The notes beneath the pieces were generated by a model, which searched no databases, was not told the origin of the DNA, and was given only the letters and a program-made list of their open reading frames with translations. 64,000 nucleotides of DNA, from contig NZ_CP016094.1 of the NCBI RefSeq assembly GCF_001746835.1, positions 3,425,501 to 3,489,500 of the forward strand. Direction: 5' to 3'. Below are positions 18,357-55,305 of this stretch, one piece after another. Position 1 is the first letter of the stretch. Each line of letters begins with the position of its first letter. A program made the translations under genes and the position numbers. The stretch is from Lacunisphaera limnophila (GTDB lineage: Bacteria; Verrucomicrobiota; Verrucomicrobiia; Opitutales; Opitutaceae).

Positions 18357-20000
18357 TCAGCTCACGTATTTCTGGACGATCGGGATGCGGCGGCCGACGC
18401 CGAAGGCGAGGGGGGTGATTTTCAGGCCGGGGGCGGCCTGCTTTCGTTTGTATTCGTTGAGGTCCACCTTGCGGACGACGTCGTTGACCACGGCTTCGGC
18501 GAAGCCTTGCGAGATTAGGTCAGCGCGAGACAGGCCTTCCTCAACGTAGCCCTTGAGCAGGGCGTCGAGTTGGTCGTACGGCGGGAGGCTGTCCTGATCC
18601 GTCTGGTTGGGCCGCAGTTCGGCGCTCGGCGGCTTGTCGATGGAATTGACCGGGATGATCTCACGGTGGCGGTTGATCCAGCGGGAAAGGGCATAGACCT
18701 GGGTCTTGAACACGTCGCTGATGACGGCCAGGCCGCCGCACATGTCGCCGTAAAGTGTGCAATAGCCCACGGCCAGCTCGCTCTTATTACCCGTGGTGAG
18801 GAGCAGGGCCCCGAACTTGTTCGAAATCGCCATGAGCAGGAGGCCGCGGGCGCGGGCCTGGATGTTTTCCTCGGCGATGTCGCGGGGCCGTCCGGCGAAG
18901 AGCGGGGCGAGGGTGTGCTCGGCGGAGGCCACGACGTCGGCGATGGAAAGCGTGTGGTACCGGATGCCGAGATTCTTCGCGATGAGCGTCGCGTCGTCGC
19001 GCGAGTGCTGGCTCGAGATAACCGAGGGCAGACTGACGCCGATCACGTTCTGCGGACCGAGCGCCTCGGCGGCGATTACGGCGGTGAGGGCGGAGTCGAT
19101 GCCGCCGGAGAGGCCGAGCAAGGCCTGCTTAAAACCGGTCTTGTTCGCATAGTCGCGCACGCCGAGGACGAGGCCGTCGTAGATGTCGGCCAGGTCTTCC
19201 TGATCGAAGGTGGGGTGAAGCCCGTCGGCGGACGGGGCCACCAGATCCACGACCCGCTGTTCGACGCAGAAGGCGGCGAGGCCGGCCACCACCCGGCCGG
19301 TGGCGTCGGCCACGAGGCTGCGGCCGTCAAAGAGGAGTTCGTCGTTGCCACCGATGGCGTTGACGTAGGCCACCGGACAGCCGAGCTGGCGGGCGGTGTC
19401 GGCGACCAGGGTGTGGCGCACGCCGCCCTTGCCGTGGTTCCAGGGACTGGCGGACAGGTTGACCATCAGGTCGCAGCGACCGGCGAGCTGGGCGACGGGC
19501 AGGGCCCCCGCGTAGAGCCGGCGGGTGGAAATCATGGCGTGGGTCCAGATATCCTCGCAGATGGTGATGCCGATGCGCTGGCCGCCGAATTCCACCACGG
19601 TCGGAGCGGCGGCCGGCTCGAAGTAGCGGTCCTCGTCGAAGACGTCGTACGTGGGCAGCAGGCACTTGCGGGCCGTGGCGACGATGCGGCCCTCGTGACA
19701 GAAGGCGGCGGAATTGAAATACGGCCGGCCCTGCCCGGTGGTGTTGGTCTCGGCGAAGCCGATCACGGCGGGTACCCGGCCGATGGAGCGGGCGAGTTCG
19801 CGGGTGGCCTGCTCGACGTCGGGGACGAAGCGTTTCTTAAAGAGCAGATCCCGGGGTGGGTAGCCACAGACCACGAGTTCCGGGAACACAACCAGCTCGG
19901 CCCCCTCGGCGACCAGTTTTTGGTAGGCGGAAGCGATGAGGCGGCTATTGCCGGCGAGGTCGCCGACGATGGTGTTGATCTGGGCCAGGCCGATACGCAT
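18357..20000 (-). CDS. nadE: Glutamine-dependent NAD+ synthetase
   Basis: A 547-residue two-domain NAD synthetase that amidates nicotinate adenine dinucleotide using ammonia released from glutamine. The N-terminal nitrilase-type glutaminase has Glu in [13 protein letters not shown] (about 37-49), Lys in [15 protein letters not shown] and the nucleophile Cys in GITICEDIW. The C-terminal synthetase has the PP-loop [13 protein letters not shown] near 290-302. The length is usual for the long glutamine-dependent form. It diverges from maf across a gap holding a cloverleaf inverted repeat. Confidence 0.95.
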
Positions 20001-20054
20001 GGGAAAATTGGGTTAGACAACTTGCCGCCAAGGAGGCCGACTGCAACCCCATAG

Positions 20055-20117
20055 ACCAGCACAGGAACATTCCTATTTCTCCGGCCGGAGCCTGTTTACA
20101 GGCGATCCAGTGCTGGT
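20055..20117. repeat. Cloverleaf-like inverted repeat
   Basis: A perfect outer stem pairs ACCAGCAC (20055-20062) with GTGCTGGT (20110-20117). Inside are three small palindromes in a row: AGGAACATTCCT (20063-20074), CTCCGGCCGGAG (20079-20090) and CCTGTTTACAGG (20091-20102). The whole could fold as a four-way junction in single-stranded DNA or RNA. It sits between the divergent nadE and maf genes. It lacks tRNA features. Confidence 0.7.
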
Positions 20118-20168
20118 TTAGCTAGGATGCGTCCGGCCGCCGGTACACTGGCTCCTGCCCTTCAGACC

Positions 20169-20753
20169 ATGCCCTCCACCAATCCTCCGATCATTCTGGC
20201 CTCGGCCTCGCCGCGGCGGCGCGAATTGCTGGCCTCGCTGGGCGTGGATTTCACCGTCATCCCGGCCGAGGTGACCGAGCATGAGGCACCCGATGCCGAT
20301 CCCCGCGAGATGGTGCGCCACAATGCCGCCCTCAAGGCCGACTGGGTCTCCGCCCGCCATCCGGCGGCGACGGTGATCGGCGCGGATACGACCGTTTTTG
20401 TCGGCCGGACGGTCCTGAACAAGCCCCGCGACGGTACCGAGGCCCGGGCCATGCTGCGGATGCTGAGCGGCACCGTGCACACTGTGTTCACCGGCCTGGC
20501 CATCCGCCGGGCAGTTGATGGGCTCAAACTGGACCAAGGCGTGGCGAGCGAAGTGACCTTCAAGACGCTGGACGAGGCGACCATCGAGTTGTACCTGAGC
20601 CGGGTCCATACCCTCGACAAGGCCGGCGGCTACGCCATCCAGGAGGAGGCCGACCTCATTGTCGCCGGATTTACGGGATCATTGACCAATATTGTGGGTC
20701 TGCCCGTGGACGAAATGAAACAACTTTTGACTCAGGCTGGTCCGGGGCGTTGA
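20169..20753 (+). CDS. maf: Maf-like nucleoside triphosphate pyrophosphatase
   Basis: A 194-residue Maf protein that hydrolyses non-canonical or pyrimidine nucleoside triphosphates. The N-terminus ILASASPRRRELLASLG (about 9-25) is the family signature, followed by IGADTTVF with the catalytic aspartate (about 72-79), GTVHTVFTGLA and GGYAIQEEADLIVAGFTGS. ATG 20169 is preferred over 20127, which would put 14 unrelated residues before the signature. The stop overlaps the TTG start of the next gene, so maf, the TonB-like gene and the pseudouridine synthase form one operon. Confidence 0.92.
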   Translation: MPSTNPPIILASASPRRRELLASLGVDFTVIPAEVTEHEAPDADPREMVRHNAALKADWVSARHPAATVIGADTTVFVGRTVLNKPRDGTEARAMLRMLSGTVHTVFTGLAIRRAVDGLKLDQGVASEVTFKTLDEATIELYLSRVHTLDKAGGYAIQEEADLIVAGFTGSLTNIVGLPVDEMKQLLTQAGPGR

Positions 20754-54670: not shown

Positions 54671-55222
54671 ATGAAGCACTTTTCCAAAGCCCTCAGCCTC
54701 TCGCTGGCCGCCGTTGCGCTCCTTCTCAGCGCCTGCGCCAAGAAACCCGCCCGTCCGAACCCGTCGACCACCGCCATGGGTCCGGGCCTGAATGACGGCA
54801 TCAATCCCGAGGCCATCGCGCTGCCCGGCGAGAACATCAACCTCGAGGGTCGCGACGGTAACTCCACCCTCGATGGCGCCAACCTCAGCGTGGTTGAGCC
54901 GATCTACTTCGCCCTCGACCGTTTCGCCGTCGCTCCCGCCGAGCGTCCGAAGCTGCAGAACGCCCTCAAGTGGCTCACCGAAAATCCCGGCAAGAATCTT
55001 GTCCTCATGGGCTATTGCGACTGGCGCGGCACTTCCGAGTACAATCTCGGTCTCGGCGAAAATCGCGCCAACTCCGTGAAGCGCTACCTGATCTCCCTCG
55101 GCGCCGATGCCACCCGCCTCGAGACCCTCTCCAAGGGTTCCACCGAAGCCAAGCAGGGCGGCAGCGAATCCGAATGGGCCAAGGACCGCCGCGTCGACTT
55201 CGTCGAGCTCAAGAAGAACTAA
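54671..55222 (+). CDS. pal: Pal-like OmpA-domain lipoprotein
   Basis: A 183-residue outer-membrane lipoprotein. The lipobox LLSAC puts the acylated cysteine at residue 21. The OmpA/Pal peptidoglycan-binding domain runs about 75-180: IYFALDRFAVAP, GYCDWRGTSEYNLGLGENRANSVKRYL and STEAKQGGSESEWAKDRRVDF, with the Asp and Arg that bind diaminopimelate. It fits Pal of the Tol system whose TolQ/R/TonB-like genes lie 23 kb upstream. The gene ends at a clear terminator. Confidence 0.9.
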   Translation: MKHFSKALSLSLAAVALLLSACAKKPARPNPSTTAMGPGLNDGINPEAIALPGENINLEGRDGNSTLDGANLSVVEPIYFALDRFAVAPAERPKLQNALKWLTENPGKNLVLMGYCDWRGTSEYNLGLGENRANSVKRYLISLGADATRLETLSKGSTEAKQGGSESEWAKDRRVDFVELKKN

Positions 55223-55243
55223 GCGTTCTCTCCCTTTAAATCG

Positions 55244-55273
55244 AAAGGCCGCGGAGCAATCCGCGGCCTTTTT
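55244..55273 (+). terminator. Rho-independent terminator after the pal-like gene
   Basis: AAAGGCCGCGGA (55244-55255) pairs with TCCGCGGCCTTT (55260-55271) across a GCAA loop and is followed by further T residues. The A-rich left side can also serve a minus-strand transcript. Confidence 0.92.
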
Positions 55274-55305
55274 GTTGGGCGAAATTGAAACAGGTGCGAT
55301 GAGGT

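Follow-up and report, generated by a model that had tools for sequence, protein, structure and literature searches.

REPINs are inverted REP doublets with a short variable spacer, present in many copies and able to form a long hairpin, while solo or decayed members are doublet remnants (Bertels and Rainey 2011, PMC3116915). Two REP families, GTAG-1 and GTAG-2, carry extra GW bases and a 3-bp tail, and several GTAG families are already reported from Opitutus terrae, according to the available text of Di Nocera et al. (2013, PMC3733652). TnpA-REP enzymes depend on the tag: in one system, cleavage was lost when the third position of the tag was changed and was very poor with GCAG, while another system tolerated changes (PMC8266576). 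The sequence comparison was applied to an element located between nadE and maf of Lacunisphaera limnophila, within a 64,000-nt stretch of the genome that was analyzed as a whole (the window). The element was very probably a degraded REPIN, composed of two inverted GTAG-type REPs plus a spacer and inserted between these two divergent genes (Table 1).

Table 1. Features of the nadE–maf intergenic region, in window coordinates
Feature	Position	Strand	Description	Basis
Conserved block upstream of nadE	20018..20046	-	CAAGTT ... TTGCAG	Alignments with relatives
AGACCA, left copy of 6-bp direct repeat	20053..20058	+		Sequence versus relatives' short gaps
Cloverleaf of the preliminary description	20055..20117	.	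8-bp arms enclosing three hairpins	Direct reading, folds, shuffles
Hairpin 1, AGGAACATTCCT	20063..20074	.	5-bp arms, 2-base loop; outside REPIN; single copy	
Whole degraded REPIN (very probable)	20084..20158	.	75 bp; head-head REP doublet; long single hairpin possible	
Left REP	20084..20106	+	Tag GCCG (consensus GTAG), GA, stem GCCTG/CAGGC, loop TTTA, tail GAT	
REPIN spacer	20107..20135	.	29 bp, between both REPs; includes right outer arm GTGCTGGT	
Right REP, decayed inverted partner	20136..20158	-	13/20 core positions match; tag GCAG	
AGACCA, right copy of direct repeat	20164..20169	+		Sequence

The preliminary description presented a cloverleaf belonging to neither coding gene, in which a perfect 8-bp outer stem enclosed three 12-base palindromes. 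Direct reading bore out the stem, the arms ACCAGCAC (20055–20062) and GTGCTGGT (20110–20117) being perfectly reverse-complementary, and likewise the intergenic position, with nadE starting at 20000 on the minus strand and maf at about 20169 on the plus strand. Three hairpins were indeed present, but the limits of the third had to be corrected: hairpin 2 (CTCCGGCCGGAG, 20079–20090) was a perfect palindrome, while the true pairing of hairpin 3 (CCTGTTTACAGG, given as 20091–20102) was GCCTG/CAGGC at 20090–20094/20099–20103 with the loop TTTA, and thus hairpin 3 really spanned 20090–20103 and shared G20090 with hairpin 2.

When 20030–20140 was compared with the host's own 4.2-Mb genome, one other place was found, and it matched 20081–20107 only; the same search detected neither the outer stem nor hairpin 1 a second time, and of the genome copies that had been proposed as a check, only those of the REP part were detected. 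Together, hairpin 3 and half of hairpin 2 (20084–20106) made up one member of a dispersed REP family with the consensus GTAGGAGCCTGCTTGCAGGCGAT, and alignment of the family copies gave CTTGTAGGAGCCTGCTTGCAGGCGATTCC. The own-genome copy counts rest on pattern searches: GGAGCCTGNNNNCAGGCGAT had 12 exact copies, and 26 copies of GGAGCCTGNNNNCAGGCGA were counted when up to one mismatch was allowed, versus 0 for the reversed control pattern. The family thus behaved as a repeated 20- to 50-nt palindrome, as do GTAG-type REPs. REPs of this type are mostly extragenic, and the window copy itself lay between nadE and maf; the GTAG tag, which such REPs carry on the 5′ side of the palindrome, was found in the family consensus, while the window copy had GCCG (left) and GCAG (right) instead. 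The REP core (at most one mismatch) was present at 0 to 193 copies in genomes of the same genus, three of which had 69, 193, and 132 copies, and this REP family occurred in 21 of the 49 genera that were sampled from the taxonomic family; the named relatives were Lacunisphaera, Oleiharenicola, and Opitutus MAGs, all Opitutaceae. Exact head-head REP pairs numbered 3 in the own genome, 58 in G013, 44 in G017, and 15 in G012, with 0 in the controls. Another Opitutaceae genome, G083, harbored at L253 a tandem array of alternating REPs GTAGGAGCCTGCTTGCAGGCGA and GTAGGAGCGTGCTTGCACGCGA with a period of 114 bp.

A weight matrix (PWM) was built from 22 other family copies and applied to the window. The left REP, whose core had no mismatch to the family, gave the best score in the window (30.9 bits at 20081–20110, plus strand), and the right REP gave the second-best score among 127,940 window positions (3.7 bits at 20132–20161, minus strand), in head-head orientation at an offset of 51. 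Among the 30 listed own-genome loci, partner REPs were found only downstream, at offsets of 30–53 and with scores of at least 3.7, while copies without a partner scored -9 or lower; no upstream partner was found among these 30 listed copies, the best upstream score being -2.5. The right REP of the window copy therefore lay within the spacing and orientation of the family. Because the two REPs ranked first and second by PWM, with the partner at the family offset and orientation, the degraded REPIN at 20084–20158 was taken as the real unit; it comprised two inverted REPs plus a short spacer, the partner being decayed, and intact doublets occurred elsewhere in the genome and genus. The match of the right REP at 13 of 20 core positions was weak and counted against this reading. 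The likeness of the spacer to other REPIN spacers, matched by about 7–8% of random comparisons, was not significant and would be suggestive at best.

These data also bear on the unlikely alternative in which a solo REP of this family would stand next to an ancestral promoter of maf, the right REP being a chance likeness and 20118–20150 old promoter DNA. GCTAG...TACACT of the window resembled GCTAGCC...CTACTGTG, found in other genomes of the Lacunisphaera type, where both GCTAG and a TAC-CT motif recur, and a genus-typical gap of about 102 bp would leave 66 bp (168 - 102), about the size of the element first described. However, the GCTAG likeness covered just 5 bases, the GCTAG block was absent from the closest relatives (L124 and L125), and the second-best score in the window fell exactly at the doublet offset and orientation.

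With the degraded REPIN as the unit, the original coordinates cut the real element: the right half (20118–20158) was missed, and 20055–20083 were no part of it. The earlier proposal of a mobile palindromic repeat held for a REP/REPIN copy at 20084–20117, reaching to 20158, but not for the 63-base cloverleaf itself. The right outer arm was located inside the REPIN spacer and the left one outside the REPIN, and the outer 8-bp stem was a chance pairing of the spacer with the DNA on its left. Pairs of 8-bp arms at such spacing numbered 57 in the window versus 66.8 ± 10.5 in 60 dinucleotide shuffles; the symmetry, said to be unusually dense, was thus at chance rate for the arms alone, but arms of this kind enclosing three 5-bp hairpins were found once in the window and in 0/60 shuffles (a post hoc test). 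This single occurrence and the AGACCA direct repeat near the ends would suit a distinct cloverleaf element (either a recombination site or a miniature element with ACCAGCAC/GTGCTGGT at its ends) merely containing a REP, which was judged extremely improbable given the chance frequency of the arms, the placement of the right arm within the REPIN, and the lack of a second genome copy beyond the REP part. For the suggested recombination site, neither a recombinase gene nor an attachment-site family was indicated. The cloverleaf was a partly accidental frame around a REPIN remnant and no natural unit.

Folding gave a divided result for the cloverleaf. The RNA fold of 20050–20122 (73 nt) had -29.6 kcal/mol and z -5.5, and after G+C correction its stability ranked among the highest 0.45% of window segments, with 18% more stable in absolute terms; the ssDNA fold of the same 73 nt had -13.8 kcal/mol, and its minimum-energy form was not the three-hairpin cloverleaf. 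The 81 nt at 20081–20161 formed a single long hairpin (DNA: -20.5 kcal/mol, z -3.0; RNA: -37.9 kcal/mol, z -2.3), and this REPIN hairpin exceeded the cloverleaf segment in total stability as both DNA and RNA, the lengths differing (81 versus 73 nt). ARAGORN found no tRNA cloverleaf at the element, the only tRNAs of the window being tRNA-Ala (31547) and tRNA-Lys (53734). Elsewhere in the window, at 55210–55282, a strong GC hairpin was followed by a T run (AAAGGCCGCGGAGCAATCCGCGGCCTTTTTG) in the manner of an intrinsic terminator.

The nadE–maf region was matched in 20 of 21 genus genomes. The spacing of the two genes was 168 bp in the window, 60–66 bp in close relatives (60–64 bp in the closest, L124 and L125), and about 100 bp in most others. 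The element was absent from the gap of L124/L125, which keep the gene pair; more generally, the gap was empty or differently occupied in relatives with the same pair, and conservation of the element was not upheld. The extra DNA relative to L124/L125 was about 111 bp, which exceeded the 75-bp REPIN and left 20059–20083 unexplained; this counts against the REPIN reading. So does the AGACCA pair that brackets this additional stretch compared with the short L124/L125 intergenic regions, since a 6-bp terminal direct repeat would not be expected from single-strand REP transposition; the repeat may be due to chance.

Unrelated palindromic inserts were observed in the nadE–maf gap of different lineages, at the relatives' loci L047, L123, L129, L130, L131, L133, L149, L171, and L173: (i) a GTAGGGCGGGATC pair at L047, (ii) a GTAGGTGGCG pair at L149, and (iii) an inverted repeat with 41-bp arms at L173. 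A TCATTGCGAG...GACGAAGCAATC element was located in the gap at seven loci, and the strict TCATTGCGAG pattern was rare within the genus (2 genomes). It is improbable, if conceivable, that unrelated palindromic repeats would land in this gap again and again within the genus and that the inserts, the REPIN included, would alter maf/nadE expression.

A block conserved in relatives was located between the element and nadE, with CTGCAA at 20041–20046 (TTGCAG on the minus strand) and CAAGTT 16–17 bases further; from its sequence and conservation it was predicted to be the probable nadE promoter, and the consensus scan gave no sigma-70 match in it. Because this probable promoter sits between the element and nadE, the element would not be transcribed from the nadE side, and nadE is unlikely to have it as a structured leader, since the conserved block intervenes. 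The structured leader proposed earlier would thus be conceivable for maf only. The data pointed to no function of the REPIN, and an effect on maf expression is possible. The reading as a structured RNA or regulatory cloverleaf that acts as a leader in the 5′ untranslated region of either gene could draw on the RNA z value of -5.5, and a REPIN downstream of a maf start site would be transcribed; this reading was nevertheless considered very improbable, as the element was missing from close relatives retaining the gene pair, the conserved block separated it from nadE, Rfam covariance models matched nothing within 19500–20700 at E values up to 1, and the consensus scan gave no terminator or promoter-like consensus at the element. 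An ancestral maf promoter within the element was considered as a candidate and rejected, with a short likeness only and no consensus promoter found.

RAYT-like genes were detected across the genus by PF01797 and protein searches. In the relative G013, the gene L213:974–1489 was abutted on both sides by the window's REP family: it began directly after one REPIN, and its TAG stop was located inside the GTAG tag of the next REPIN. This gene exceeded the NCBIfam REP_Tyr_transpos cut-off (86.1 versus 80 bits), which assigned it to the REP-associated tyrosine transposases. G013 was the only genome in which a RAYT with this very REP family at its flanks was observed; the loci read in the REP-rich G012 and G017 included no directly flanked one. 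A different REP, GTGGGAGCGAGCTTGCTCGCGA, which we take to be close to Pseudomonas-type REPs, was found on both sides of the RAYT relatives L223 (G006) and L225 (G002).

The own genome carried three RAYT-like genes, L033, L034, and L244 (C1:2125223, 63590, and 3669956), the window's REP family being absent from the flanks of all three. L033 was over the NCBIfam cut-off and L034 slightly under it (77.4 versus 80 bits). L033 and L034 were flanked by other inverted palindromes (GTAGGGCGGCATCGCC... and GGCGGGGTGCCCTCACCCCGC), so that other REP families were also present in the own genome. The REPIN would have been placed by a Y1 HUH enzyme, a RAYT (REP-associated tyrosine transposase), via a single-stranded hairpin, and it would have decayed after insertion between nadE and maf. 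Judged by its sequence, the window copy is probably immobile now, since its tags are GCCG and GCAG in place of GTAG and the search of the genome yielded no RAYT flanked by this REP. In the literature library searched, no paper joined Opitutus with 'REP-associated tyrosine transposase'.

The present comparison describes the REP/REPIN family GTAGGAGCCTGCTTGCAGGCGAT in Opitutaceae, together with cross-genome counts and a candidate RAYT from a single relative. It also illustrates how an eye-catching cloverleaf can consist of a single arm of a decayed REPIN combined with accidental pairing. In the own genome, copies persist without a recognizable REP-flanked RAYT, which makes it a case for asking at what rate a REPIN population decays. 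Compared to REPtrons and their TnpA-REP (PMC8266576), none was found in the own genome, while the relative G013 had a RAYT gene flanked on both sides by the window's REP family. Compared to GTAG-tagged REPs and their head-head dimers, the window copy had the tags GCCG/GCAG, while its family shared the layout of GTAG-1/GTAG-2, namely GTAG, unpaired GA, a 5-bp stem, a 4-base loop, and the tail GAT, as compared by the layout described in the available text of PMC3733652. The window element was a mobile-element remnant, a decayed copy of an already known kind of element: like REPINs it comprised two inverted REPs plus a short spacer, with a long hairpin possible, but it was decayed, with the right REP barely recognizable and both tags mutated, and the first-base spacing of its paired units was about 51 bp versus 71 bp (GI) in P. 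fluorescens SBW25 (PMC3116915).
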